DNA from: Simmondsia chinensis
Lineage: Eukaryota > Streptophyta > Magnoliopsida > Caryophyllales > Simmondsiaceae
DNA length: 64,000 bases
Assembly: GCA_018398585.1 (NCBI GenBank)
Contig: JAGTTD010000012.1
Span: 16,997,036-17,061,035, forward strand
Reading direction: 5' to 3'
Position numbers and translations under genes: made by a program. Below are positions 1,150 through 56,369 of the stretch, piece by piece (within the stretch, counting starts at the first letter, position 1; the number at the start of each line of letters is the position of its first letter). The notes under the pieces were generated by a model. That model was given only the letters and a program-made list of their open reading frames with translations, ran no database searches and was not told the origin of the DNA.

Positions 1150-2307
1150 TTGTTGAGATGAATGGAAGTTTTCAGTGGTTCAAGATCTCCATCAATGTAA
1201 GGTTGCAGTCTTTGCCCATTGAATTTGAAAGTGCACTTTTTCTCATCCTAAATCTCAACCGTGCCATATGGAAAAACACGGGTCACAATAAAGGGTCCTG
1301 ACCATCGAGAGCACAACTTTCCTAGGAAAAGTCATAAGCGGGAGTTAGATAGTAAAACTTTTTGTCCCACTATGAATTCTTTGTTCAAAATGTGCTTGTC
1401 ATGCCATCTTTTGGTTCGGTCTTTGTAAATTCGAGCATTTTCATAAGCTTCATTTCTAAACTTGTCCATCTCATTTATCTGCGGCAACCTTTTCTCTCCT
1501 GCAGCTTGTGAGTCAAAATTCATGGTTTTCATGGCCCAATAAGCTTTATGTTCCAACTCTACTAGTAAATGGCAAGCTTTGCCATAAACCAATCGATATG
1601 GAGACATTCCAATTAGTGTTTTAAATGCTGTTCTATATGCCCAAAGTGCGTCGTTCAACTTTTTCGACCAATCTTTTCTAGAGACGCTAACTGTTTTTTT
1701 CTAGAATAGTTTTCAGCTCTCGATTTGAAACTTCTACTTGTCCGCATATTTGAGGATGGTATGGAGCACCCACATAGTGTGTAACTCCGTACTTACTCAA
1801 TAGTGCTTTTAATTGGCGGTCACGAAAATGTTTTCCGCCGTCACTTATAATCGCTCTAGGAGTTCCAAATCGAGAAAAGATATTCTTTCTCACAAAGTTT
1901 ACTACAATTCTAGCATCATTGGTTGGAAAAGCAGTTGCTTCAACCCACTTCGACACATAGTCTACAGCAACCAAAATAAATCTGTTAGAAAATGATGAAG
2001 GGAAAGGACCCATGAAATCAATCCCCCAAACGTCAAATAATTCAACAACTAAAATGTTGTTGAGGGGCATTTCATGTTTCTTAGAAATATTTCCTGTCCT
2101 TTGACATCTATAGCATTTACTAACAAATTTAAAAGCATCTTTAAAAAGTGTTAGCCAATAAAATCTAAATTGTAAAACCTTAGCTGCAGTTCTGGTTCCT
2201 CCATAATGACCTCCGGTTTCAAGGGAGTGACAGTGGCACAGAATGTCCTCTATTTCCTCCTCTGATACACATCTTTTGATAATTTGGTCTGCACAATGCC
2301 TGTACAA
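1150..2307 (-). pseudogene. Athila integrase domain, frameshifted
   Basis: The first frame (2307-1687) holds the HHCC zinc-binding region (a GGHYGG motif, then CYRCQR) and the catalytic core with D in GIDFMGPF, D in IISDGGKHF and E in GQVEVSNRE, so the D,D,E residues are kept. A frameshift at an A-run near 1695 moves the reading frame to 1658-1332 ([21 protein letters not shown]), and a further shift leads to the GPF/Y-type motif (WSGPFIVTRVFPYG) down to about 1150. The enzyme would insert the retroelement cDNA into the genome. Lesions make it non-functional here. Confidence 0.85.
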
Positions 2308-2358
2308 GAAAGGCTCTTCCCAAAAATAGTACTTTAAGTCAGCAAAGAACTTCTTCTT

Positions 2359-4187
2359 TTATTGGTAAGTCATATCCTTAGGTAGTTCATGTGCAACCAA
2401 ATAGTCAACAATGTTAGCGTACCATGGACAATTAGGATTTTTGCTTACCATCATAAGACTTTCATCTGGGAATTTTTCGTTGATAGAGGGACTTTCGTCC
2501 TCCCGTTCAAGACCCGACAGATGATCTGCCACAACATTTTCTGTTCCCTTTTTATCCCAAATTTCTAAGTCAAATTCCTGAAGCAATAAAATCCATCTAA
2601 TCAGCCTTGGTTTTGCATCCTATATCGCAAAAAGATATTTCAGAGTAGCATGGTCAGTGTAAACAACTACCTTGGAGTTAAGCAAGTAGGAACGAAATTT
2701 GTCAAACGCAAAAACAACAACTAGTGGCTCCTTTTTGGTGGTAGCATAGTTAACTTGCGCTTCATTCAAAGTTCTACTAGCATAGTAAATGGCATGAAAA
2801 ATTTGTTCCTTCTTTGTCCTGAGACAGCCCCTACAACATAGTCGCTAGCGTCGCACATAAGCTCGAAGTGTAAGGTCCAATCAGGTGCTATGATTACAGG
2901 TGCTGACACTAATTTTCTCTTCAGGGTTTCAAAAGCATTCATGCAGTCGCTATCAAAGTTAAAAGGGACATCTTTCATCAACAGATTGCAAAGAGGCTTA
3001 ACGATCTTAGAAAAGTCCTTAATAAACCTTCTATAGAAACCAGCATGTCCTAAGAAACTCTGAATGCCTTTAACATTAGTAGGGGGTGGTAACCTCTCAA
3101 TCACTTCATTTTTTGCTCTATTAACCTCAATTCCTCTTTTTGAAACCATATGTCCTAACACAATTCCTTCTTGTACCATAAAATGACATTTCCCCCAATT
3201 CAAAACAAGATTTGTGTCAGTACACCTTTTCAAGACCATAGAAAGATTAGCTAAACATTCATCAAATGAAACTTTCCACCATATCACTAAAGATTGCCCT
3301 CATACATCGTTGAAAAATCGCAGGAGCATTACATAACCCAAAAGGCATTCTCCTATAGGCAAAAGTGCCATAAGGGCAAGTGAAAGTGGTCTTTTCTTGA
3401 TCCTCAGGTGCTATGGCAATTTGATTGTACCCTGAATATCCGTCAAGAAAATAGTAATAAGAATGGCCCGCCAATTTTTCCAACATTTGGTCAATGAATG
3501 GTAAGGGGAAATGGTCCTTTCAAGTGGGGATGAGCTCATTGTTTCCATTTTCTATTACAATTATTCCCCCTTTTTCGGAACTACATGTACTGGACTAACC
3601 CATGGGCAATCAGATATAGGATAAATTATCCCGACATCTAACAGTTTGACAACTTCTTTTCTCACTACTTCTTTCATGGCAGGGTTTAACCGCCTTTGAG
3701 GTTGAATAGTCGGTTTGAAGCTATCCTCCATGAGAATTTTGTGCATGCAAATGGAAGGGCTAATTCCCTTGATATCAGAAAGGGTCCATTCTATTGCTGA
3801 TTTATGGTCTCTTAAAACTCTAAGTAACCTTTTCTGTTCTATGTTGCTCAATGAGGCATTAATAATAATAGAATAAGAGTTAAAGTTACCAAGATAGGCA
3901 TATTTGAGAGGTGGTGGCAGTGGCTTAAGCTCAAGATTTGGAGATTCATCTTCTTCCATTCCTTGCTGAATTTCAATTGCTTGAATGTCTTCCACCCTAA
4001 TTTCGCAGTGGGAATCAAGAGGTTCGCAGCCTTCCAGGTGTTGGGCACATTCCCTTATCAACCCATCTTCCATGTCTATGGTCCCAGATTTTGTTAGACA
4101 CACTTCAAGGGGCAACTTGGAAAATGTGTCCCTGAATGTCTTAGTGACCAACTCATCTATAATATCAACCTCAAAACAAGAATCCAT
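2359..4187 (-). pseudogene. Athila reverse transcriptase and RNase H, with active-site deletion
   Basis: Pieces in different frames: 4187-3561 (linker and N-terminal RT, ending WVSPVHVVPKKGE), 3486-3262 (GYSGYNQIAIAPEDQEKTTF, MPFGLCNAPAIFQRCM), 3287-2766 (SFDECLANL, FLGHAGFYRRFIKDFS, then RNase H start with CDASDY) and 2586-2359 (RNase H end, [10 protein letters not shown]). The sequence jumps from the MVESF segment straight to SFDECLANL near 3273. The FMDD-type box carrying the catalytic aspartates, expected between them, is absent. Further frameshifts lie near 3550 and 2770-2620, and an in-frame stop near 2620. The copy is dead. Confidence 0.85.
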
Positions 4188-4228
4188 GTTGAGGGAAATT
4201 AAATGGCATTAAAGACGTTAAAGGTTAC

Positions 4229-4735
4229 CTATTCATCTTGTACCCTTAGGATCAGCTTTCCTTGTTGTACGTCTATCAGGGTCCTTCCTGTAGCAAGGAA
4301 GGGTCGGCCTAAAATAAGAGGTATCTCATGATCCTCTTCCATGTCAAGTATTATGAAGTCAGCCGGGAGGATGAATTTATCGACCTTCACAAGGACATCT
4401 TCAATCACACCTCTAGGATACTTGATTGATCTGTCCGCAAGTTGGAGAGATAAGGTGGTAGGCTTCACTTCCCCTAATCCAAGCTTCCTGAAAACAGAGA
4501 GAGGCATTAAATTTATACTTGCACCTAAATCACATGAAACTTTATCAAAACTAATGGAACCAATGGTGCAAGGTATTGTAAAACTCCCTTGGTCTTTTAG
4601 CTTGGGAGGCAACTTCTTTTGTAATATGGCACTACATTCTTCAGTAAGCACTACCGTTTCGAATTCTCCCAACTTTCTTTTGTTAGATAGAATTTCTTTC
4701 ATGAATTTTACATATTTGGGCATCTGTTCTAACAT
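4229..4735 (-). pseudogene. Athila aspartic protease domain
   Basis: The segment is in the same frame as gag. It contains the retropepsin-type core CDLGASINLMPLSVFRKLGLG, the DxGAS variant usual in Athila-type elements, followed by IPLILGRPFLATGRTLID. The protease would cut the Gag-Pol polyprotein. The frame stops at 4229, and another stop follows before the RT part. Upstream, near 4780-4860, two single-base frameshifts of opposite sign separate it from gag. Confidence 0.85.
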
Positions 4736-4858
4736 GTCAGCAAAAGGGACATTGATGTGTAACTTTTGAAAATTTCCAAAAATTTGGCAAATTGTTCATT
4801 CGCTTTTGTATTTTTCAAGCGTTGAGGGAATGGGACTTTTGGTTTGTAGGGTTGAGGT

Positions 4859-6313
4859 TCAGCCCTTTTTTGGTTCATTTTCATTCTGGGTTTTTGTCCC
4901 TTCCTCATTTTCTATTTCCTGATTTGTTTCAGTGGATAGGTCAATTATGGGTTGCTCAGCTGGCATGGGTTGGTCTTCCTGAGTTGGTTCTTTCAAGACT
5001 TTCCCACTTAGTAATTCTATTGCTTTTACTTGCTCTCGTGGGTTAGTGATGGTATTACTGGGTAAGGAACCTTGAGATCTTTCAGAAAGGAGATTTGAAA
5101 TTTTCCTAATTTGGGTCTCATGGTTACTAATCGTCGCTTCTTGATTTCGAAGAATTATTTCAGTGTTTTGCAAGAAACTTCTAGTATCTTGCATAAACTT
5201 ATTCAGCAATTCCTCGAGATCAGTCTTTCTTTCAGGGGGATGAAAAAGTTGTTTTTGAATCCCTTGGTTATTCCATGAAAATTTTGGATGGTTTCTCCAC
5301 CCACGATTATACGTGTTGGAATAGGGATTATTTTTTTCAAAATTTAAAATAAAATTGGTGTGCTCATGGGTTGATGGGGCGAAAGGATTTCCTGTTTGGC
5401 ACTCTATGCTGGAATGATTCCCTGCGCAAAACTCACATGTTAGTACAAGAGAATTTATAGCATTTACGTTCATGTTAGTTACCTATTTCTTAAGCATTGC
5501 AATCTCAGCATTTAACTTTTTTATTGTATCCAGCTCGTATATCCCCACAGGTTTCTTCTGCTCAGTTGCTCTTGCATAATTATTGCTAGCCATTACTTCT
5601 AGCAACTCATATGCATCTTTTGGAGTTTTGAGGTTTAGCGATCCTCCAGCCGCCGCGTCTACCATTGTTTGGTTATTAGGTGCCAACTCATTATAAAATG
5701 TTTGGACTTGCATCCAAATAGGCAAACCGTGATGTGGGCACCTACGCAAAAGTTCTTTAAAATGCTCCCATGCTTCATACAATGATTCAGAGTCATATTG
5801 CACAAATGAGGTGATGTCACTCATCATTTTAGCAGATTTGGCTGGTGGAAAGTATTTTGCAAGAAATCTTTGAGCCAAATCATCCCAAGTAGTGATAGTT
5901 CCAGGAGGTAATGACATCAACCAAGCTTTGGCTTTGTCTCACAGTGAAAAAAGAAACAACCTTAAGCGCACAGCGTCATCACTGACACCATTATGCTTAA
6001 AGGTATCACAGATCTCTAAGAAGTTAGAGATATGTAGGTTTGGGTCTTCACTGGGTAGACCACCAAATTGAACTATTTGTTGAATCATTTGTATAATAGC
6101 AGGTTTTATTTCAAAATTATTGGCATGTATAAGTGGACGTCGGATACTGGAGGTGTATCCCCCAACAGTAGGTACAGCAAAGTCCTTCAAAGTCCTTTCG
6201 TCTTCATTTCCAGTATTAGTAGCCATGTTTTCAGCCCTTTTTTCTTTCCTAATTAATCGAAGTGTTTTTTCAGGGTCAAAATGGGTTATTTCTTTTTCAA
6301 TTAAATGTTGCAT
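4859..6313 (-). pseudogene. Athila gag (capsid and zinc knuckle), two in-frame stops
   Basis: One frame runs from the ATG at 6313 to 4859 and is interrupted by TGA at 5939-5941 and TAG at 5483-5485. Domains in order: N-terminal region (HANNFEIKPAIIQMIQQ, GGLPSEDPNLHISNFLEIC), the Retrotrans_gag core (SLPPGTITTWDDLAQRFLAKYF), and a CEFCAGNHSSIEC zinc knuckle near 5440. Both stops are plausibly C-to-T changes (CGA to TGA, CAG to TAG) because family homologs carry Arg and Gln at such places. Gag forms the virus-like particle that packages retroelement RNA. Confidence 0.86.
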
Positions 6314-8630: not shown

Positions 8631-8865
8631 CCAAAGAGGGCACCAACACGTCGTCACCGGATCGCATTAGAACTACGAAGTTAAGCGTGCTTGGGCGAGA
8701 GTAGTAACAGGATGGGTGACCTCCGGGGAAGTCCTCACCCTCAGGTTAGGGACACTGGAAAACAGCCTCTCTTCAGGTTAACACCCTGAAGGGGGAAGAC
8801 TGCGTACATCCGCTCCCCCAGACCCTGCGTAGGTGGGAGCCCTTGAGGCACTGGGTATGTTTCTT
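8631..8865 (+). mobile_element. 5S-rRNA-headed SINE, copy 1
   Basis: The head matches plant 5S rRNA over about 95 bases, including the A-box region (AAGTTAAGCGTGCTTGGGCG) and the C-box region (GGATGGGTGACCTCC). It then passes into a non-5S tail with CAGCCTCTCTTCAGG, CTGCGTACATCC and GGCACTGGGTATGTT. The corresponding position of the sister LTR (about 37125) is empty, so the insertion came after integration of the LTR element. The target duplication is short or diverged (ATTACC against TTTACC). Copies 2 and 3 share the same structure. Confidence 0.82.
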
Positions 8866-8929
8866 TACCCAGGTATCCTATATGTCTATAATACCAGTGT
8901 AGTATTTACTAGCCCAGACACAGCTGGGA

Positions 8930-29540: not shown

Positions 29541-29544
29541 TTTT

Positions 29545-30977
29545 CGTTGCATTTCATTGATTTGGAGAAGGCATATGATAGAGTGCCAAGAGAGGTACTA
29601 TGGAGGGTTTTGGGTAGGAGAGGCATCCCCATGCCATATATCCGGGCCATTCAAGATATGTACAAGGAGGCACATACTAATGTGCGCACAGGGGAAAGGG
29701 AGACAGACACTTTTCCTATTACAGTTGGGGTATACCAAGGTTCTGCCTTGAGTCCTTTTCTATTCATTCTAGTCATGGATGAGCTCACTAGACACATCCA
29801 AGGGGAGGTGCCTTGGTGTATGCTTTTTACAGATGACATAATTTTAGTGGGGGACTCCAGAGCAGACATAAATGAGAAGTTGGAATTGCGAAGAAGCACT
29901 TTGGAATCGAAGGGATTACGAATTAGCAGATCTAAGACTGAGTACTTAGAATTCAAATTTGGCCATTCCACCACGACTAGTACAAAGGATGTCAAGATAG
30001 AATCGGAGACCGTACCGAGGAAGGAGAGTTTCAGATACTTGGGCTCCATGATACAGCAGAACAGGGTGGTTGACAAGGATGTCAACAACAAGATTAATGT
30101 AGGCTGGCAGAAGTGGAGGATGGCCTCCGGGGTGCTTTGTGATAGAAAAGTCCCGCTAAAGCTAATGGGAAAATACTACAGGATGGTAGTGAGACCTGCT
30201 ATGTTGTATGGGGCAGAGTGCCCCCCAATGAAACTACATCAAACACAATGGATAAAGGTGGCAGAGATGAGGATGTTGCGCTGGATGTGTAGCCACACAA
30301 GGAAGGATAGGACCAGGAACGAGGTAATCGGAGGTAAATTAGGTGTAGCCTCGAACAATGATAAGTTGAGAGAGCACCGCTTGAGATGGTTTGGACATGT
30401 TAGCAGGAGACCAACCACAGCTCTAGTCAGGAGGTGTGAACAGCTACATACTACGCTAGGCAGAAGAGGGAGGGGCAGACCAAAGAAGAGTTGGCCGGAG
30501 ACGATCCGACACGACCTAAACCTAAGGGAGGAGATGGCCTTAGATAGAGCACGATGAAGGGCTAGCACAGGGGTAGTAGTGAGGCGAGTGACTGGTAATT
30601 TAAGATTTCTAGGCAGTCATAACCCGAGGTAGTGCACTTATTTGTTATTTAGTTGCTTCCCGATTTATTCGCCAATTATTGGCCATGTACTATTTGCTTT
30701 ACTATGTGCCTTGTAGTTGCCTTCTGTGGGGTATATTATATACTACTAGTTTAATGCGGTGTCCTAAGCTGATGCTTTGTGGCTTCCTTGGTCTCCAGGT
30801 TACAATGTTCTCATGACAACTCGATCTTCAGAATGGGGGTCCTCGAAAACAACCTCTCTTCCACCCGGAAGGGGGAAGGCTGTGTACATCCACTCCCCCC
30901 CTCCCTCCCCCGACCCTGCTTCATGCGGGAGCCCCTGTGGCACTGGGACTGTTGTTGTTGTTGTTGTTATACAATCT
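29545..30977 (+). mobile_element. 5'-truncated RTE-type LINE
   Basis: It starts inside the reverse transcriptase domain and ends in a (GTT)n tract at about 30958-30977, as plant RTE LINEs do. The 3' end before the tract (ACCTCTCTTCCACCCGG, GGCTGTGTACATCC, GGGAGCCCCTGTGGCACTGGG) resembles the tail of the 5S-headed SINEs in this window. Target duplications cannot be resolved because the surrounding array is itself repetitive. Confidence 0.85.
29547..30557 (+). pseudogene. RTE LINE reverse transcriptase, 5'-truncated
   Basis: An open stretch of 336 codons covering the C-terminal part of the LINE protein. Motifs: FIDLEKAYDRVPREVLW, then GVYQGSALSPFLF, then FTDDIILVG, where the two aspartates of the polymerase site are kept (RTE proteins usually read FADD). 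The C-terminal region has RYLGSMIQ, WFGHVSRR and GRGRPKKSW. The endonuclease and the N-terminal third of RT are missing, so it is a dead fragment. The terminal stop TGA falls where relatives usually have Trp, and may be a further lesion. Confidence 0.87.
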
Positions 30978-38142: not shown

Positions 38143-39640
38143 TGTTGGAATTGGTATCCTGAAAAACCCAATTTGTTAGTTATAAATATTAAATGAATGA
38201 AATTATTTTTTTTTTTTTAATTGTTTGATTATGTTTTATGAGTCTAATGTACGTGTGATTGTTTTCTAAAACGTTCCTTGAGATGAACACAGTCCAAGAT
38301 GACAAGTCAGGTTCGGTTTAAGTGGTCAATAAAATTGAGCCACAGATAGACTTAAATTAAATTAGTGATATGTTATTGAAGTATGTTAGTAGTCAGTGAT
38401 AAGTTTGGAAAACTTATCTGATAAGGCTATAATATGATACTTTAAATGACTTATTTTGGTCATATGGATAGAGATCTAAAAGTGTTATATTGGTGTTGTC
38501 AGTAAGATTTGAACACTGACCTAGACCATCTGAATTAGTTGTTTCTTTACTGCTATCAAAAATAATTAATTCTGTGAAGATGACAACTCTAGATCCCGAA
38601 AATAGTCTAAATGCATGAACAGACTGTTCATTGCTTTGATCGGCTAAAAGGATTAGTCACAACATGTTGACTTAAATCTTACCAAAGAGGGCACCAACAC
38701 ACCGTCACCGGATCCCATTAGAGCTCCGAAGTTAAGCGTGCTTGGGTGAGAGTAGTACAAGGATGGGTGACCTCCTGGGAAGTCCTCACCCTTAAGTTGA
38801 GGGCACTGGAAAACAGCCTCTCTTCAGGTTAACACCCTGAAGGGAGAAGGCTGCGTACATCCCCCCCCCCCCAAGACCCTGCGTAGGCGGGAGCCCTTGA
38901 GGCACTGGGTATGTTCCTTTTATGTTGACTTAAATCTTATGTGCGTTGGGTAACTTCATAAAGTGTAGCGAGGACATGTATTTTACATGAAATCTATAAT
39001 CTCTTATAAGATAAATATGTCCCCTTTGTTGATTTGCAAGCATAAGAACATATTCGATAATCTTTGGCCAAAGTATTTCAAATGTTTGACATTTGAAATT
39101 AGTACATAAATTATTTTATGCATTATTGAATTATTCGAGAAGGGCAAGTTAGTAACTATGGTCAAAGATGTGAGAAAATTAGTGATAGCAGTTAAAACTA
39201 CTTTTCCTCATGGATATCTAATAGATGGGTTGATTGTCACAATAAAAGTAATTTGGAAATTATTAAATAAAAATATTTAATTCTAGAGTGCAGTAATATT
39301 TATTTAGTGGAATTAAGTATTACTAAATGGCAATCAATGTTATCAAGTGTTGATAATTATATTTGACACATTTGGAGCAAGAATTAAGTTGTCCCTGAGG
39401 TCTCTCTGCAAGCTTTTAGAAGTACAGTGGTTGAAAATATCCGAAATGAATTTATGAGATAAATTATTTGTTCGTGAGATGAATAAATTAATTTTGTTAA
39501 ACATAATTCATGAGATGAATTATTTATTCATAAGATAAATAAATTAGTTTTACCAAATAATATTCATGAGGAATTTTATACATGCGAGAATTTAAAATTA
39601 GAAAAGGAAATGAAACGATTTAAATAAAAAAGGTTAAAGA
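38143..39640 (+). repeat. copia-type LTR with inserted 5S-SINE
   Basis: It begins TGTTGGAATTGG and matches 56370-57600 by eye over its length (GATTATGTTTTA, AATAATTAATTCTGT, GATATCTAATAGA, TGAATTATTTGTTC). Compared with that copy it has an extra segment, the 5S-SINE at 38682-38921 with its target duplication. The right boundary is uncertain, since similarity fades near 39620. Confidence 0.65.
38682..38921 (+). mobile_element. 5S-rRNA-headed SINE, copy 2 (exact 18-bp target duplication)
   Basis: The copy is flanked by ATGTTGACTTAAATCTTA at 38664-38681 and 38922-38939. The 5S-like head spans about 38695-38790, with the A-box region at 38729-38745 and the C-box region at 38761-38785; the match to the plant 5S rRNA consensus is nearly complete. 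The tail (38791-38921) ends GGCACTGGGTATGTTCC then T-rich bases. The last part of 5S rRNA is replaced, so it is not a 5S gene copy. This is the clearest copy for defining the element's ends. Confidence 0.9.
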
Positions 39641-43004: not shown

Positions 43005-44259
43005 GAGTCGGTTCCGAAAATAATGATAAAAAAAATAATGCTGAAAAAAAAATATTTCCATATCTACTGTTGAACCGCTTTTTTTAAAAACAGTTTAGTT
43101 CACATTAAACCGCGTTCAGCAAACGCGGTTTATCGAGTTAAACCGCGTTCAACCGCGTTCCATAAACGTGGTTCACAGTCAGCGAGCCCCCTTTAAATTT
43201 AATTTATAGTCATATTAATTACAAGGTTTAAGCACTAATGTCCTGCTAGCCCAATGGTCACGGTCATTAAATGGCAAATGCCTGACGTGGGTTCGATTCC
43301 CACTTAATGCAATATTTTTTAATTTTGGGAGAAATTTTCTAAGTTTTTTCTTAAATGTAATAGTTAAAAACTAAATATACAATTTTAAAATTATTTTTAA
43401 ACTCTTACGAGTCACAAATTTGGATTTACCTTTTAAAATTATCTTCTTTTATTACATGGATAAATAAAAGTATAATATATGTGGGAGTCTTTATACAAAT
43501 ATTATAAATGTGGGAGTCTAATTAAAATTTAAATTTCTATAGTACTTTTCTAGTTTGAGTAGATGTGCTTTATCAATTTTTTTGAGTTGTGAAATGATTA
43601 AAAAAACGTCGATTGTGAATTTTTTAATAATTTTTATTATTAAGTTATTATTTTTTTTATTCAAGCTCCCCTTACTCTAAAATTCTGGATCCGCCACTGC
43701 CCCCACTTACAGTTACCACTATGCGTGATGATCATCACATTGATCCCATGTCCCTCTCAACAAAGCTCCAACATCATAAGTGGAGGTGGTACGAAATCAG
43801 GCAAAGTTATAAAAAAAAATGCTACTAATTCAGTAGTGATCAAATAACTCTAACAATAGTACTTGAAAGATCTCCGGCATATAAAGCAGAAGAAGAGAGG
43901 CAGCATACGACGTGACCTGCGGTGGGTTAACAAGAAAGAGGCAGAGAGACGGTGAGAGCCGGGGCGAGGGGTACGCGTGAGTGAATGGGTCGGGGTTGTA
44001 GATCCTCAGTAAACCGCGTCCTAACCGCGTCTAATGGATGCGGTTTATCTAAGTATAAACCGCTTCTAAAAAACGCAGGTTTATTGTATAACTGCGTCTA
44101 TAAGACGCGGTTTAGACGTAAAACAAACGCATTAATTTGACGCGGTTTGTTATAGCTGCATTTTGTAAATGCGGTTCAATAGTAGATATGAAAATATATT
44201 TTTTTCAGCATTATTTTTTATATTTTTTTATTTTTCAGTATTATTTTCGGAATTGACTC
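43005..44259. mobile_element. non-autonomous TIR element with AACCGCG repeats
   Basis: The left end GAGTCGGTTCCGAAAATAAT and the right end, read in reverse, GAGTCAATTCCGAAAATAAT match, and similarity continues for about 80 bases (AATAATGCTGAAAAAAA, ATATCTACT.TTGAACCGC). The flanks are AAAAATTGG and AAAAATTGA, an 8- or 9-bp duplication. Subterminal AAACCGCGTT-like words recur on both sides in opposite orientation. There is no transposase. Duplication length suggests a MULE or hAT relative. Confidence 0.72.
43232..43310 (+). other. tRNA-like sequence inside the TIR element
   Basis: A consensus B box GGGTTCGATTCCC (43289-43301) lies within a perfect 5-bp T-arm stem (GTGGG/CCCAC), and an A-box-like TAGCCCAATGGT lies at 43247-43258. 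Terminal GCACTAA and TTAATGC could pair as an acceptor stem with one mismatch. At 79 bases with an odd D-arm region it is not a clear functional tRNA. It may be a SINE head or a captured tRNA. A T-rich stretch follows. Confidence 0.5.
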
Positions 44260-44834: not shown

Positions 44835-44975
44835 TTCTTTTTGTTGTTGGAGGCCTAGCGTCGCTTTTGGTTAGTATCTTGTAAGGGTAAGATTGCGTAC
44901 GTCTTACCCCCCAGCCCCAATAATTTGTCTTGGCGGGAGCCTTTTTTATGCATTGGGCTGTTGTTGTTGTTGTAA
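44835..44975 (+). mobile_element. short (TTG)n-tailed SINE/RTE 3' end
   Basis: Flanked by GTACAAATA at 44826-44834 and 44976-44984. The body contains GGTAAGATTGCGTACGTC, CCCCAGCCCC and GGCGGGAGCC, and ends GCATTGGGCTGTTGTTGTTG. This matches the 3'-end pattern shared by the RTE LINE at 29545-30977 and the 5S-SINE tails. It is a 5'-truncated insertion. Confidence 0.75.
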
Positions 44976-46574: not shown

Positions 46575-49500
46575 ATGGATTCGAATGAAATTGCACTGAT
46601 TGGTGGTGTTACCACTAGATCAGCAGCTGCTAAGTCTTCATACGCTGATGTTGTTGGCAGCAGTGATGCAGCAAGTCGGGATGTGGTTACGAATGCTCAA
46701 TTGGACAGTCAGTTGAAGTCAATGCTTGATCAAATCAAGCAAGCAAATATAGAAACAATGCTGCAGATGAATCAACAAATCGATGAGAAGGTTGATCAGC
46801 GAGCTCAGCAGTTGGAGGTTAAGATCTCTGATCAGGTCGCGCTTCAATCACAAGAATTGGAGGAGAGGTTTAACCTGCGGTTTGATCAGCAAATGCAACA
46901 GCTGGAAGAGAAATTAGCAGAGATTCGAGAGCAATTTAGGAGGCCAAATCCTCCTGTTGTTCCGGATCCATTATTGCCTGCTAGTGTATTACAAGCTAAT
47001 CAACCTGTGAATCATCAGATGCAAAGTGAAGCTGTCAGACACAATGAACACACTCCAGTGGTTAATACTGATGTTGATGCTAGAGTTCAAGATCGAGTTC
47101 AGGAAGTTGAGATAACTGATAGGCAAGGTCGCAGTGAGCAGGTGCAGTCATGACCTTCAAACTGGAATGCAGGACCTGATGTTCGAGCCCCTGAGATTGC
47201 AGACACTCACATAACAGTTGGATTGAATGTGGAGCAATTGGATAGACCACCTGATCAGTGGAATCAGCAACATTCCGGTAGTAATGAGGAATCGTCTAAT
47301 AGCAGAAGCAGTGGTCATAGACAGCCTCGGATGCAGATTGATGCTTTTGATGGGAAGCAACCTCATTCATGGCCTAGAAGGTGTGATCGTTATTTCCACT
47401 TCTACCATATCGAGGAATCAGAAAAGGTACAAATCGCTGCTGTATATCTTTTAGGAGATCATGAAGTGTGGTTTTATAGTTTGATGAAAAGCAATCCTTC
47501 CCTCACATGGACTGAATTTGCCAAAGAATTGTGTGGCCGGTATAGTGATGAGGATGATAGTGACATTGTGGATAAATTCAATAAGGTGAAGCAGGAGACA
47601 TCAGCGAGAGATTATATGACCAGGTTTGAAAACCTCCGAGCAAGCATCATAACTGAAATTCAAGCCTCAGAGTCGTATTATGTTTTAGCCTTTATAAGTG
47701 GATTGAAGCCAAGGGTGAAGAACTTAGTTAAAGCCATTGATCCTCCAACCTTGTCTATGGCTTATGCTAAAGCCAAGCTTTATGAATCAACAATGTTGCC
47801 TTCAAGTGATGTTTCCAGACCTCGTGGAGGCAGCTCCAAACCACAGCAAGGATCTGTTAGGTCCAGGACCAACAGATCAAAGGATAAGCAGCTGCAGAGG
47901 ATGTGTTACCGATGTAATCAACCTTACCAATTTGGCCACAAGTGCAACCCAAAGTTTCTTATGTCTGCTGAAGGGGTTAGTGCTAGAAAACTCTCTGATG
48001 GAGAGGAGATTGAAGATGATGGAGATGATTTAGATCAGGACATCGAGGAGAACTTGGATGATGCTGAAGTGGAAATCTCAATGAAAGCCTTGACTGGAAG
48101 TGGGACTCATAGCAGAATCCGAATCAAAGGGAAGGCTGGAAAAAGGTCTATCATTATCCTCAATGATAGTGGCAGCACCCATAGCTTTGTTGATCCTAAA
48201 GTGGTCAAGAAAGTGGGTCATGAAGTGATAAAAACTCATCCTCTTGCTGTTACCGTGGCTAATGGGAAATCTATGATGACTCAAAACAAATGCCAAGGGT
48301 TCTATTGGTATATGCAGGACCGCAAGTTCAGTTATGATTTTAGAATCCTTCCTTTGGGAGGGTGTGATATGGTGCTTGGGGTCGATTGGGTGAGATCTTA
48401 CAACCCAGTGTTGTTTGATTTTGCTAATCTCACGGTTTCCTTTGAAGCACAAGGCTCTAAAGTTACATTGCAAGGGATGGCTGAGCAAGCTCATTTGCAA
48501 GTAATGAAGGGAAGTAAGTTGAAGAAGGGAATTAAGAAAGGTGCATTCCAATGGGTAGGGCAGCTGTTTGCTATAACTCCTACTGAAATGGTGAGCATTA
48601 CCGAACCTGAAGTGCAAGCAGTGATCAATGAATTTGAGGATCTATTTGAGGTGCCCAAGTCCTTACCTCCCAAGGGGAGTTTAGACCATGTTATTCCTCT
48701 CAAAAGTAATGCAGAACCCGTGAGACTTAGGCCGTACAGATATCCACATGCTCAGAGGTCGGAAATAGAGAAGCAAGTGGATGATTTACTCAAGACCAAC
48801 TTCATACGGCAAAGTCACAGCCCCTTTGTCTCTCCGGTTATTCTTGTCAAGAAAAAGGATGGTACGGCTAGAATGTGTATTGATTATAGGCAGCTCAACT
48901 CTATGACAGTAAAGGACATGTTTCCTATACCAGTTATAGATGATCTGCTTGATGAGTTGTGTGGAGCTCAAGTCTTTTCCAAGCTGGATCTACGACAAGG
49001 CTATCATCAAATTAGAGTGGAAGAGCAAGATGTGTACAAGACAGCATTCCGGACACACCATGGACACTTTGAGTTTGTAGTCATGCCTTTTGGCTTGACA
49101 AATGTCCCAGCCACATTCCAAGCTCTTATGAACGATGTCTTCAAGCAATTTCTTAGGAAATTTGTGTTAGTCTTCTTTGATGACATCCTGGTTTACAGTG
49201 CATCTTTTGAGGAGCATTTGCGGCATTTGAGGGAGGTGTTCTTGGTTATGCGTGAGCACAAGTTGTATGTTAAATTGGCCAAATGTTCTTTTGCTCAAAC
49301 TCATTTGGAATACCTTGGCCATGTGATTTCTTGTGAGGGGGTTTCCACTGATCCCTCAAAGGTCCAAGCCATGAGGGAATGGCTTGTTCCGGTAACCTTG
49401 AAGCAATTGAGGGGATTTTTGGGATTAACTGGGTATTACTGCAAGTTTGTAGTAGGGTATGGAGCTTTAGCCAAGCCACTCACAGACTTGTTGAAGAAAG

Positions 49501-51455
49501 ATGCTTTCAAATGGTCGGATGAAGCCTAGATTGCTTTTGACGCTCTTAAGGCAGCTATGTGCAGAGCACCTGTTTTGGCCATGCCCGATTTCACTTCAAG
49601 CTTTGTATTGGAGACTGATGCTTGTGGAAGTGGTGTTGGGGCAATGTTGTCACAAGGAGGAACGCCTATAGCTTATCTCAGCTAGGCATTGAGTGCAAAA
49701 CATCAAGCACTCTCCACATATGAGAAAGAGTACCTCGCGATTCTGCTTGCTGTGGAAAAATGGAGGCATTACTTGGATGGGCATCATTTTATCATCAAGA
49801 CTGATCACCAAAGTCTTAAGCATCTATTAGAGCAGAAGATTGTCACAAGAATACAAAGAAAAGGGCTGATGAAGATGTTGGGGCTTGATTATGACATTGA
49901 GTATAAGAAAGGAAAGGAAAGGAAAGGAAAGGAAAATATTGCAGCTGATGCACTGACGAGCAGGTTTGAAGATTATGAGCAAGGCTCTCTTGGGGCCGTT
50001 TCAGTGATCTCTCCTGCTTGGATGGAAGAAGTACATCAATCCTATGAGAACGATCCATTCGCACAAGAATGTATAGCAGCTGTCAGTGTGGGTAAGGCAA
50101 GTAAGTTGGCTGCTGGTGCTGATGTTTCTGTAACAAGAGGAATTATCAGAATTCAGGGGAAGTTGTATATTGGCATTTCTACTGATCTCAGGCTTCAGGT
50201 CATCAGTGCTGCTCATGATTCTTCATGGGGAGGTCACTCAGGAATGGAGAGAACGTACCAAAGGCTGAAAATGCACTTCAGCTGGCCGGGAATGAGGACA
50301 GCAGTGACTAATTTTGTGCAAAGTTGTGAGATTTTTCAACAAACTAAGCTTGGTGATCATAGGTATCAAGGACTTCTCCAGCCTTGACCTGTTCCGGAGG
50401 GAATATGGCAGAATATAAGCATGGATTTCATTGAGGGATTGCCTAAATCAGAAGGGAAAGAGGTGATCTGGGTAGTAGTTGATCGATTCACCAAATTTAG
50501 TCATTTCATTGCGTTAGCCCGTCCTGTGACTGCTGATAAATTGGCTCGTGTGTTCCTTGATAACATCTACAAGCTTCATGGGTTGCATCAATCCATAATC
50601 TGTGATAGAGACAAGATCTTTACAAGTCGCTTTTGGAAGGAGTTGTTTGGTCTTTTGGGAACGACTTTGGCCCTTAGCTCGTCTTATCATCCTCAAACCG
50701 ACGGTCAGGCTGAGAGGGTCAATCAATGCATCGAGCAATACCTGAGAAGCATGGTGTTTACCCATCCTAAGGTGTGGGGGAGGTGGCTCTCATTGGCGGA
50801 ATTTTGGTATAACACCCATTTCCATGCTTCTCTTGGAACTACACCTTTCAAAGCATTGTATGGGTGTGATCCACCCACTCCATTGATGTTGCAAGGAGTT
50901 GAGTCCCAGGTTGCTGAGGTTACTGAGTTGGTGCAACAAAGGAAGCATCTTATGCAGCTGTTGAAGAATAATCTCAGTTAGTCACAAGCCCGAATGAAAT
51001 GGTATGCAGATCGCAAGAGAGCAGATAGAAACTTTGAAGTGGGTGATATGGTGTACTTGAAACTTCAGCCCTATAGGCAATCCACAGCAGCTGTAAGGAA
51101 GAATGTCAAGCTTTGCGCACGATTCTTTAGGCCTTACAAGGTTTTGGAGAAAATTGGCAAGGTGGCATACAAGCTGGAGCTTCCACCCGATTCATATATT
51201 CACCCTATTTTTCATGTTTCACTTCTTAAAAAGCAGGTTAAACAAGGCCAAGGTTCTTCTCCAGATCCTCCGGAGGTCGGTTCCAGTGGCTCTCTGATCC
51301 CACAGCCAGCTGCAATAGTAGAAGTTAAGCAAGGAAGTGCAACCAGTTCCAACAGGCAAGAAGTTCGAGTGAATTGGTGCAATTTGGATGAGTCCTTCAC
51401 CACTTGGGAAGAGAAACGATTTTTGTTAAGCCAATTTCCTTCTTTTCATTCTTGA
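46575..51455 (+). pseudogene. Reina-like gag-pol, one frame with five stops
   Basis: From the ATG at 46575 one frame runs to 51455. Order: coiled-coil-rich N-terminus, Retrotrans_gag region (about 47340-47780), zinc knuckle CYRCNQPYQFGHKC (47901), protease (DSGSTHSF, 48163), RT (FFDDILVYS, about 49180), RNase H ([17 protein letters not shown]), integrase (HHCC, then MDFIEGLP, CDRDKIF, GQAERVN) and a chromodomain-like end (RVNWCNLDESFTTWEE). Stops: TGA 47151, TAG 49527, TAG 49683, TGA 50385, TAG 50979. No frameshift was found. The second zinc-finger Cys pair reads CEIF, so one Cys is lost. Confidence 0.9.
49905..49934 (+). repeat. GGAAA pentamer repeat inside gag-pol
   Basis: About five GGAAA units encode KERKGK-type residues before ADAL in the RNase H. 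The reading frame is kept. Confidence 0.8.
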
Positions 51456-52525: not shown

Positions 52526-55078
52526 ATGGTGGACGCAGTCGTCACTGTCTTTTTGGAAAGACTCTTCGATGCTCTTGTGGATCAGAGCCATGTACTGAGC
52601 AGTCATAGAGAACAGTTTGAGAAGTTACAAATTGAGCTCCAATTGATGCAAAGCTTCCTTAAGGATGCAGAGAGGCTCAAACGAAAGAACGAGTTCCTAA
52701 AATCAATCATGCGCAACCTCTGGGAGTTGATTTATGAAGCTGAAGATATACTCGCAGATTGCCAGGGGCAGTCTACTAGCAGCACTGACAAGTTTCTCAA
52801 TGGTTATTCTACGTGTTATCAACCAAATAAAGTCACCCAAAAGTACCAAACAGGAAAGAGGCTTAGAGAAATCAATGAAAGAATCACGAGCATAAAAGCG
52901 CAGATGTCGTCTTTCCCGGTACTGCAGCTTATTTTTCAGCAAGGGATGACTAAGTTTGATGAAGATGCACTACCCAGATGGAGCTCCCCCGTGTATGATC
53001 ATACCCAGGTTGTTGGACTTGAAGATGACACAAGAAAAATCAAAGACTGGTTATCCCAAGCGAGTCGTGGCATACTTGCAGTTGGAATAGTTGGTATGGG
53101 TGGACTTGGAAAAACAACTCTTGCTCAGAAAGTTTTTAATCATAAAGAAACCGAGCTTTGCTTTGAGAAGAAAATATGGGTTTCCGTATCTCAGGCGTTC
53201 ACCGAAGGACAAATCATGAGATGCATTTTGAGAAACCTCGGAGACACAAGCACAGGAGACAATGGGGGTGAATTATTGAAGAAAATAAACCTGTATCTGC
53301 AGGGAAAGAGGTTTTTGATTGTGATGGATGATGTCTGGAGCAAAGACAATACTTGGTGGCTCAGAATCCTCGATGGGTTGCCCAAAGGAAATGGAAGTTG
53401 TGTCATTGTTACCACAAGAATCGAGGAAGTTGCCCGAAAGATGGGAGTACAAACTGAAAGAATCCATCGTCCAAAATTTCTCAGTAAAGACGATGCATGG
53501 TTGTTATTCTGCAACATCGCCTTTGCAGCTCATGAATCCCGCTGTGTGTACTCTGAGCTCGAGAACATTGGAAGGGAAATTATTGATAAATGCGGTGGCC
53601 TGCCACTAGCAATCAAAGCAGTTGGAGGAATGATGCTCTGCAAGCCGCCACAGTACCATGAATGGAAACGGATTTCAGATCATTTCCGGGACGAGTTAGC
53701 TGAGGATGATGACTTTGTTATGGCTTCATTGCGGTTGAGTTATGATGAGCTCCCCTCTTACTTGAAGTCATGTTTCCTTTCTCTATCTATCTATCCCGAG
53801 GACTACATCATAAGCAAAGATCAGTTGATCCATTGGTGGATTGGTGAGCGTTTTGTGCCTCTGAGGAGCGGTAGATTATCAACTGAAGCCAGTGAAGATT
53901 GCTTGTCGGGTTTGACAAACCGATGCTTGGTTGAAGTTGTAGACAGGGATTATAACGGAAGGATTTGCACCTGTAAAGTGCATGATATGGTGAGAGACTT
54001 GGTGATCAAGATTGCGGCAGATTATTCTTTTTCTGGGGATACTAAAATTGTTATCTCCCGTCATCTTGGACTGAAATCCGATACTGATGAAACCCAGCTC
54101 ACCAGAAGCTGCAAGTTGCGGGCCCTGATCTCGACCGTGAAAACTGGTGAAGTGAACAAGATTTGTTCGACCGTTGCAAGGAAATTTTGTGAGTTTCGAT
54201 ACTTGCAGGTATTGGATCTTTCAAAATCTATCTTTCAAGAGCCTCTGGCCATCCTCCTTGATAAGATTTCCAGCCTTAAACACTTGACATGCCTCAATCT
54301 GAGTAACACCCATCCACTTATTCAAGTTCCTTCTTCAGCGGAAAGACTCCGCAACCTGCAGATATTTGATGTTAGCTACTGCCAAAATCTGAAATCCTTA
54401 CCACCTTTCATAATGACATTCAAGAAGCTCACCATGTTAGACGTGAGCCATTGTGGGTCCCTCGAGTTTCTACCGAAAGGGCTAGGATTGCTATTGAATC
54501 TTGAAGTATTGTTGGGCTTTAGGCCCGCTAGGATGCACCAATTTGAAGGTTCTCGGATCAGAGAGCTGAGAAGCTTGACACGACTTAGAATGCTCGGGTT
54601 GCAAATCACATGTGCAGATGAGATTGATGACTTTGAGCTCGACACATTAGCTGGGCTTAGAAGTCTGCAAATTTTGACATTAAGTTGCTTTAATAGCCTT
54701 GGCAATGACCATATGTATAAGCTAGAAAAACTGATTCCTCCTTCGCAGCTTTATGAACTTTCCCTCAAATTTTACACTGGAAAGACAAGTCCGAAATGGC
54801 TCAACCCGATATCTCTTCCTATGCTTCGGTTTCTTTGCATCTCAGCAGGAAACCTCGCAAAGATGGACCAAAGCTTTTGGGGGGATGATCAGTTTGCCTG
54901 GAAAATTGAGGGTTTGAAGTTGGAATCGTTATCAGATTTGAGTGAGAGTTGGTCGATGGTTCACCAAGTGATGCCGTCCTTAAGAACGGTTTACGCTTGC
55001 TGGTGCCCTGAGTTGAGGTCTTTCCCTATAGAAAATGTTGGTTTTCGAGGGGGTATGTGGAAGAAGGAAGAGAGCTAA
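52526..55078 (+). CDS. ZAR1: CC-NB-LRR immune receptor, ZAR1 homolog
   Basis: An 850-codon intact frame, about the length of Arabidopsis ZAR1 (852). Order: CC domain starting MVDAVVTVFLE (MADA-like, with acidic residue E11) and YEAEDIL at 70-76; NB-ARC with P-loop GMGGLGKTT (190-198), kinase-2 FLIVMDDVW (263-271), TTR at 296-298, GLPL at 358-361, and VHD (485-487) for the MHD motif; then LRRs with LSNTHPLIQ and a VGFRGG end. In Arabidopsis ZAR1 works with RLCK XII pseudokinases and, when activated, forms a pentameric resistosome, a calcium-permeable channel at the plasma membrane. The CC and C-terminus agree closely with ZAR1, so I call ortholog or close paralog. No RLCK gene is in the window. 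All switch motifs are present and there is no lesion, in contrast to the decayed TEs around it. Confidence 0.93.
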   Translation: MVDAVVTVFLERLFDALVDQSHVLSSHREQFEKLQIELQLMQSFLKDAERLKRKNEFLKSIMRNLWELIYEAEDILADCQGQSTSSTDKFLNGYSTCYQPNKVTQKYQTGKRLREINERITSIKAQMSSFPVLQLIFQQGMTKFDEDALPRWSSPVYDHTQVVGLEDDTRKIKDWLSQASRGILAVGIVGMGGLGKTTLAQKVFNHKETELCFEKKIWVSVSQAFTEGQIMRCILRNLGDTSTGDNGGELLKKINLYLQGKRFLIVMDDVWSKDNTWWLRILDGLPKGNGSCVIVTTRIEEVARKMGVQTERIHRPKFLSKDDAWLLFCNIAFAAHESRCVYSELENIGREIIDKCGGLPLAIKAVGGMMLCKPPQYHEWKRISDHFRDELAEDDDFVMASLRLSYDELPSYLKSCFLSLSIYPEDYIISKDQLIHWWIGERFVPLRSGRLSTEASEDCLSGLTNRCLVEVVDRDYNGRICTCKVHDMVRDLVIKIAADYSFSGDTKIVISRHLGLKSDTDETQLTRSCKLRALISTVKTGEVNKICSTVARKFCEFRYLQVLDLSKSIFQEPLAILLDKISSLKHLTCLNLSNTHPLIQVPSSAERLRNLQIFDVSYCQNLKSLPPFIMTFKKLTMLDVSHCGSLEFLPKGLGLLLNLEVLLGFRPARMHQFEGSRIRELRSLTRLRMLGLQITCADEIDDFELDTLAGLRSLQILTLSCFNSLGNDHMYKLEKLIPPSQLYELSLKFYTGKTSPKWLNPISLPMLRFLCISAGNLAKMDQSFWGDDQFAWKIEGLKLESLSDLSESWSMVHQVMPSLRTVYACWCPELRSFPIENVGFRGGMWKKEES

Positions 55079-55114: not shown

Positions 55115-55877
55115 GAAGTCTTAAATTCAGAGTTCATCATCCTCCTTTTATAAGTATTGGCTTTCTCTTTCGGGAAAGTTGTACTCCTTGCCAAAGTAGA
55201 AGAAAACTATTGAAGAAGGAAGAGCAAAGAAGCTAATGCCCTTAGTGGGAGAAAGATATTTTTTCAGTAAAGTTTTCTTCTTGAGATATATAAATATGTA
55301 TGATACCAGTTTTGGGTTTGGGTTATTTGAAGATGAGGTGAGACTTGAAGTTGTGGGGTCGGGATTGAAAAAGGTTCTCATTCGTGGAAGTAAACGTCTT
55401 GTATAATTGTATTCCTTCAGAGGAATTCAACTTTCACGTCTTGGTGGAAGATGTCTTTTCATTTGGACGTTGTTGATAGTCATTTATGTAACGAAATTGC
55501 GAAGGTTGAGAACATTGTTCTGAAAGCTTAGTAAGTAATTTATTATATTCATTAATAAGTTATTTTATCTATTTATTTGTTATTTTATTGAATTTTATGA
55601 GTTATATATGTATTTGATTATTTTTTAAAATGTGTCGTGAGATGGAACCTAGAGTAGGATGACATATCAACATTTAAATTAAGTGGCCAATGAAATTGAG
55701 TCCCTAGTGATTCTCAATAAATGACTGAGTTTGTTTTTGAGTAATTGGTAGTAATTTCGAGTTATTGGCTAATATAAAGTATGTGGTTGTTTTGAGTCAA
55801 TGGGTGCTTTTGCCAAGGGACATAATTTTAAGAAATTGGTGACCAATTTCAAGCATTTTTGACAACTAGATCAAAAA
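55115..55877 (+). other. 3' flank with a diverged copia-type LTR fragment
   Basis: To about 55500 nothing is recognised. From about 55540 to 55850 the sequence (TTATTTTATTGAATTTT, GATTATTTTTTAAAATG, AAGTGGCCAATGAAATTGAG) resembles the LTRs at 38143 and 56370, but is much diverged. Confidence 0.45.
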
Positions 55878-56124
55878 CCAGAGAGGGCACTAACACGCCG
55901 TCACTGGATCCCATTAGAATTTCAAAATTATGCGTGCTTGGGCGAGAGTAGTACCAGGATGGGTGACCTTCTGGGAAGTCCTCACCCTCAAGTTGGGGGC
56001 ACTGGGAAACAGCCTCTCTTCAGGTTAACACCCTGAAGGGGGAAGACTGCGTACATCCGCACCCCCAAACCCTGCGTAGCGGGAGCCCTTGAGGCATTGG
56101 GTATGTTCGAAAAAAAAAAAAAAA
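55878..56124 (+). mobile_element. 5S-rRNA-headed SINE, copy 3 (poly-A tail)
   Basis: Same structure as copies 1 and 2: 5S-like head (GTGCTTGGGCGAGAGTAGTA, GGATGGGTGACC), CAGCCTCTCTTCAGG, CTGCGTACATCC and GGTATGTTCG, ending in a run of about 15 A. Flanking ATCAAAAA at 55870-55877 and 56125-56132 is a likely target duplication. The A-box region has small changes (CAAAATTATGCG), so this copy is more diverged. Confidence 0.87.
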
Positions 56125-56369
56125 ATCAAAAAACATTACCTATCTGTAGCAATCACCGATGTATTTGAAGCCAAAATCTGAACTCTATCACAAATAATGT
56201 CAGATGTGTATGATTACTGAAATTGTAGCCTCCACCACTTTCGTTTGTTTTCCTCTTACATGTATAAATATTTTGTAGCAATTATCAAATAATGATACTA
56301 ATAATAACAAAAATACATAATACGATAAATAATATATTATCAATTAACAACAAAATATAAATAGATTCT

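Follow-up and report, generated by a model that had tools for sequence, protein, structure and literature searches.

A dispersed SINE family with a 5S rRNA-derived head and a LINE-derived tail in the genome of Simmondsia chinensis

We find that a family of SINEs is dispersed over thousands of places in the genome of Simmondsia chinensis, and that three of its copies lie in the window (the whole 64,000-nucleotide stretch of DNA analysed here). Judged from its sequence, the element joins a head derived from 5S rRNA to a tail derived from the 3′ end of an RTE-type LINE. It is thus a SINE3-type element, apparently one that is new for plants. We hold with high confidence to the account as a whole, namely that a SINE of this build, probably transcribed by RNA polymerase III (Pol III) and inserted by RTE machinery, is likely to have arisen through a template switch and now numbers thousands of copies.

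Copies in the window and across the genome

All three window copies lie on the forward (+) strand and exceed the Rfam gathering score for 5S_rRNA (64.5, 56.3 and 51.5 bits for copies 1, 2 and 3; gathering score 38), and the common structure ascribed to them in the preliminary description stands. Copy 1 (8631–8866) and copy 2 (38682–38921) are full-length members of a young subfamily, the former closing with a T-rich run and the latter with a terminal T-run. The head of copy 2 (38682–38787) is 5S rRNA-derived and includes an A-box, an intermediate element and a C-box; its tail (38792–38915) is homologous to the 3′-terminal ~120 nt of an RTE-type LINE (consensus positions 111–232). The fusion of a 5S head to a "non-5S tail" proposed earlier is therefore borne out as a chimera, but the tail is not anonymous, matching as it does the 3′ end of a LINE from the same genome. 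The 18-bp target-site duplication reported around copy 2 is indeed exact (38664–38681 and 38922–38939). Copy 3 (55878–56124) is flanked by an A-rich 8-bp duplication (55870–55877 and 56125–56132), the right-hand repeat following an A-run, in agreement with the short duplication and poly-A tail first described. A T-run is the norm for the family, and the A-run of copy 3 may be due either to variation in the tail or to the target. For copy 1, a flank-pair duplication test found no target duplication in the flanks.

The same window holds several other features. An open CC-NB-ARC-LRR frame of 850 aa (52526–55078, + strand) is of the RPP13-like protein 4/ZAR1 type of NLR by Pfam; among the best 120 of 334 matches, the top one is 67% identical, and those from Beta, Malania, Chenopodium, Cannabis, Ricinus and Saponaria are 64–66% identical, a spread across many eudicots that leans weakly to a Caryophyllales host and includes no close relative. 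A snoR71 C/D-box snoRNA is found at 5724–5830 on the + strand (Rfam, 46.7 bits against a gathering score of 40). At 43232–43312, Rfam gives a weak Plastid-ycf2 match on the − strand and a short tmRNA match on the + strand, and this segment is possibly a tRNA gene or tRNA-derived sequence. Two LTR-retrotransposon-like coding stretches of gag/pol type (46575–51455, + strand, and 1687–5473, − strand) both include integrase-like and reverse-transcriptase-like frames, as judged from translations alone.

The host genome that we searched comprises 831 Mb in 35 contigs. A 39-nt pattern spanning the 5S/tail junction, with up to three mismatches allowed, matched 8,561 times genome-wide (4,274 forward and 4,287 reverse), whereas the same pattern reversed gave 0 matches in the same genome; chance is therefore excluded as an explanation for the junction. 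These matches also dispose of the concern, raised in the preliminary description, that only these few copies exist. Nor do the copies share one flank: the flanks of the 35 full-length copies compared differ, and 25 copies are bounded by their own target duplications, on which grounds segmental duplication was rejected. With copy 2 as the query, the host genome returned 7,134 first-look candidates (unconfirmed as copies), and the best 40 scored were full length or nearly so, at 93–100%, on many contigs. For a random sample, 160 places were drawn across 592 Mb of the genome; the 10-kb stretches at the first ten of them contained 1 full copy and 6 tail-only matches (E value of 1e-3 or better). 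By eye, five of these six tail-only matches terminate as the LINE does, in (TTG)n or something close to it. Consensus sequences of the young subfamily and of an old one, both non-coding, are 234 and 255 nt long.

The copies carry the marks of retroposition. We compared 35 full-length copies, each in flanks of its own and among them the three from the window; 25 have target-site duplications of 10–22 bp at a duplication score of at least 9. Only 1.5% of shuffled controls, in which the left flank of one copy is paired with the right flank of another, reach that score. Two of the remaining ten scored 8, just under the threshold, and eight, including copy 1, lack a duplication. In the old subfamily, duplications at the same threshold flank 13 of 21 copies, against 0 of 398 shuffled pairs. 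Most copies begin with CCAAAGAGGG and finish with GTATGTTCC followed by a T-run. Copies truncated at the 5′ end also exist: two loci (L032 and L035) start within the 5S part, and L035 has a matching 12-nt duplication by eye. Together with the LINE 3′-end tail, the excess of target duplications over the control supports the earlier proposal that a plant SINE with a 5S head has moved by LINE-driven retroposition.

Divergence from the 234-nt consensus is 0.4% for the best copy, with a median of 3.4% (n = 35), values that understate the divergence of the family because the sampled loci are the best hits to the queries and not a random sample. The low divergence of the best copies suggests recent activity. 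Mean departure among copies is 2.1% in the A-box, 4.0% in the C-box and 0.6–3.2% in stretches of the tail. Across 33 copies (two diverged ones excluded), the promoter boxes and head are thus not clearly better conserved than the tail; we base no argument on this, as the tail was the query that brought in many of the copies and the sample is skewed accordingly.

The LINE-derived tail and its likely partner

The window itself contains an RTE-type LINE fragment (29541–30968, + strand), apparently cut at its 5′ end, which consists of a reverse transcriptase frame (29541–30557; Pfam RVT_1, E value of 5.6e-23), a 3′ UTR and a (TTG)n end. Positions 30834–30953 of this fragment match the SINE tail. 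Positions 111–232 of the SINE consensus are 79% identical to a LINE 3′-end consensus (E value of 3e-29), 82% identical to one LINE copy and 73% identical to the window's own LINE. The element thus has the LINE 3′ end expected of a SINE, at 73–82% likeness across ~115–130 nt. An older, diverged relative of the LINE tail, also with a (TTG)n end, lies at 44839–44974 on the + strand, where a search for a 5S head found none.

Such LINEs are abundant in this genome. The 3′ UTR of the window LINE returned 5,123 first-look candidates; of 41 matches, 40 spanned almost the entire query at 88–100% and the other was a partial match at 81%. All 12 of the LINE copies viewed end in (TTG)n by eye. RTE LINEs of flowering plants are described as ending in (TTG)n or (TTGATG)n, and the tobacco TS SINE as having ~100 nt in common with an RTE 3′ end (passages from Ohshima 2013). 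We infer from this end, and from the published TS SINE/RTE pair rather than from a clade tree, that the LINE is of the RTE type. Because of the same (TTG)n ends and the TS precedent, the S. chinensis element looks, apart from its head, like a known type of SINE/LINE pair: as in TS, its tail is shared with a plant RTE LINE, here one of its own genome.

On sequence likeness, the RTE-type LINE of the window is the likely source and partner lineage of the SINE. The exact partner is kept at candidate strength because the LINE copies end in (TTG)n and the SINE in (T)n. This leaves room for another reading, in which the 5S-headed SINE is moved by a different LINE (L1-type or an unknown poly(T)-ended one) and the shared tail reflects ancestry only. 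The unlike ends (12 of 12 viewed LINE copies in (TTG)n) would be as expected on this reading, and poly(T)-ended Au-like SINEs and p-SINEs appear without an identified partner LINE in the passages from Ohshima 2013. Predicted folds also lend it something: the SINE and LINE tails have two small 3′ hairpins in common, but the long hairpin that comes first in the SINE tail is absent from the LINE's own predicted fold. Set against this are the ~120-nt common tail, given in the same source as the hallmark of SINE/LINE pairing, and the commonness of such LINE ends in this genome (the 5,123 candidates above). We consider movement by another LINE unlikely, while giving it more weight than any other alternative, and favour the RTE-type partner. 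The chief difficulty with this partner is the change from a (TTG)n end to a T-run, and the poly(T) Au-like SINEs present it as well. Compared with shuffled sequences, the predicted folds show no extra stability for the SINE tail (z = −0.89), the LINE tail (z = +0.96) or the head (z = −0.28).

The 5S head and the two subfamilies

Positions 25–106 of the young consensus align without gaps to positions 26–107 of plant 5S rRNA, with 79 of 82 positions identical (96.3%); the old consensus is gap-free over 5S positions 12–119, with 99 of 108 identical. The A-box motif starts at element position 50, against 51 in 5S, so the promoter register is kept. The 5S reference is a general plant 5S rRNA sequence with the customary names and places of the promoter boxes, and the comparison rests on this and on Rfam rather than on the host's own 5S genes. 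In both consensuses, the first ~10 nt of 5S are replaced. We had considered an insertion plus a deletion at the 5′ end, and dropped this since the gap-free alignment explains that end more simply. All 40 loci given to Rfam exceed the 5S_rRNA gathering score; they comprise 20 of the 38 loci of the copy-2 type (without the truncated L032 and L035) and 20 loci of the old subfamily. By sequence, then, the head is that of a small RNA bearing a Pol III promoter, from which transcription is predicted, and its derivation from 5S rRNA gives the element the structure of a SINE3.

The Rfam result (20 of 20 loci in each subfamily) would also be expected of 5S rRNA genes scattered over the genome, or of single 5S retropseudogenes lying beside LINE tails by chance. 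Such a nature is very improbable, given that the same junction recurs 8,561 times, that the whole unit has moved as one with its own target duplications, and that both consensuses have other sequence in place of the first ~10 nt of 5S.

Old copies were first met in the flanks of young-copy loci. One of them, used as a query, returned 8,399 first-look candidates, of which the best 40 scored at 83–100%; 20 were retrieved, and the 255-nt old consensus was built from 21 copies. At one locus (L031, 1385–1850), an old copy directly adjoins a young copy in the same orientation, and the right target duplication of the young copy overlaps the start of the old one. In the old consensus, the 5S part reaches its natural 3′ end and the LINE tail follows directly, with CTCGTGTTGCACCCCT running straight into CAGGTTGGGGG. 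In the young subfamily, ~8 nt of the 5S end are gone, and by eye its tail is further from the LINE than the old tail. We infer that the order was from LINE tail to old subfamily to young subfamily.

The structure of the old subfamily suggests how the family began, that is, as a chimera. Reverse transcription of LINE RNA by an RTE enzyme would have begun at the 3′ end of that RNA and, after ~120 nt, jumped to a 5S rRNA template, so that 5S and LINE tail were joined in a single step. A template switch from LINE RNA to 5S rRNA fits the point of fusion. Later, ~8 nt of the 5S end would have been lost in the young subfamily, whose amplification would be the more recent.

Proposed mechanism, known relatives and significance

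Once in the genome, the element would recruit Pol III through its internal 5S promoter (A-box, intermediate element and C-box). Transcription would start at, or within one base of, the 5S start. Because base 1 of the element lies within one base of that start while its first ~10 nt are not 5S, the start is probably set at a fixed distance from the internal promoter. Pol III would read on through the LINE-derived tail and stop in the terminal T-run, a T-run being a natural Pol III stop. The RTE reverse transcriptase would then recognise the common tail and insert the RNA by target-primed reverse transcription.

The consensus is predicted to fold in a 5S-like three-way arrangement, with a new helix that pairs the 5′ end with the 5S/LINE junction. 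The energy of this closing helix is only mildly better than that of shuffled ends (p about 0.02, a weak value), and we therefore keep the helix as speculation. A wider reading would make this the first 5S-headed SINE lineage of plants, born in plants from a nearly complete 5S and an RTE tail, with a 5S-like fold under its new closing helix. If that fold is kept, the RNA could still engage 5S-binding proteins, and the lineage could be the source of the 5S sequence of Cassandra. We regard this wider reading as doubtful when taken in full.

SINE3 elements are reported from vertebrates and some insects (Kojima 2020, PMC7245038), and those of animals, such as Ped-1 of the springhare and HaSE3 of a moth, have a 5S rRNA-derived head as the plant element does. 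The arrangement is the same as well, in that Ped-1 is paired with the BovB LINE and HaSE3 seems to be mobilised by the RTE clade. The S. chinensis element differs in its plant host and in a tail taken from the host's own LINE. Because its 5S is of the plant type and its tail is the host's, its birth was likely independent of animal SINE3, from which it is set apart by these two features rather than by sequence comparison. 5S-related SINEs of Aspergillus (PMC5063351) also lie outside animals, but are fungal. Plant SINEs are described as tRNA-derived in a review, and the T-run end of the Au-like SINEs resembles that of our element. The Angio-SINE superfamily has a tRNA-derived head, unlike the 5S head found here. 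The tail of our element may resemble the 37-bp Angio-domain at the 3′ end of Angio-SINEs.

Cassandra (a TRIM with 5S in its LTRs) resembles the element here in being a retroelement of plants that has taken up a 5S promoter. Being an LTR element, it differs from the SINE in its insertion chemistry; target duplications of LTR elements are typically ~5 bp. Cassandra is described as the known dispersed 5S-bearing element of plants, yet it is scarcely credible that our copies are fragments of it: their target duplications are variable (10–22 bp in 25 of 35 copies) rather than short and fixed, their flanks diverge right outside the 5S-start and LINE-tail boundaries, 5′-truncated copies exist, and the tail is the 3′ end of a LINE.

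A 2010 paper speaks of 5S-homologous sequences among SINE3 "including plants" (PMC3095306), a statement that counts against novelty, but its plant reference is the Cassandra paper. The passages compared contain no plant SINE3 beyond Cassandra-type sequences. The preliminary description had held that no plant family of this kind is described; this stands insofar as we saw no plant 5S-headed SINE among the literature matches listed, a scope to which Repbase, SINEBase and Seibt et al. 2020 do not belong.

Families of this kind may go unseen because the de novo step of AnnoSINE looks for tRNA A and B boxes, and because candidates that are nearly identical to Rfam RNAs are discarded (PMC8825457). 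They could be missed, or else annotated as thousands of 5S genes, a hazard that follows from the 5S_rRNA calls at 40 of 40 loci. The family adds a second kind of 5S-capturing retroelement in plants beside Cassandra, and its subfamilies appear to preserve the steps of SINE birth, from a complete 5S with a LINE tail to subsequent trimming. Cassandra itself may derive from a SINE3 inserted into an LTR, as proposed in the passages from Kojima 2024 (PMC10886601), and an element such as this one is a plausible kind of source for that origin.
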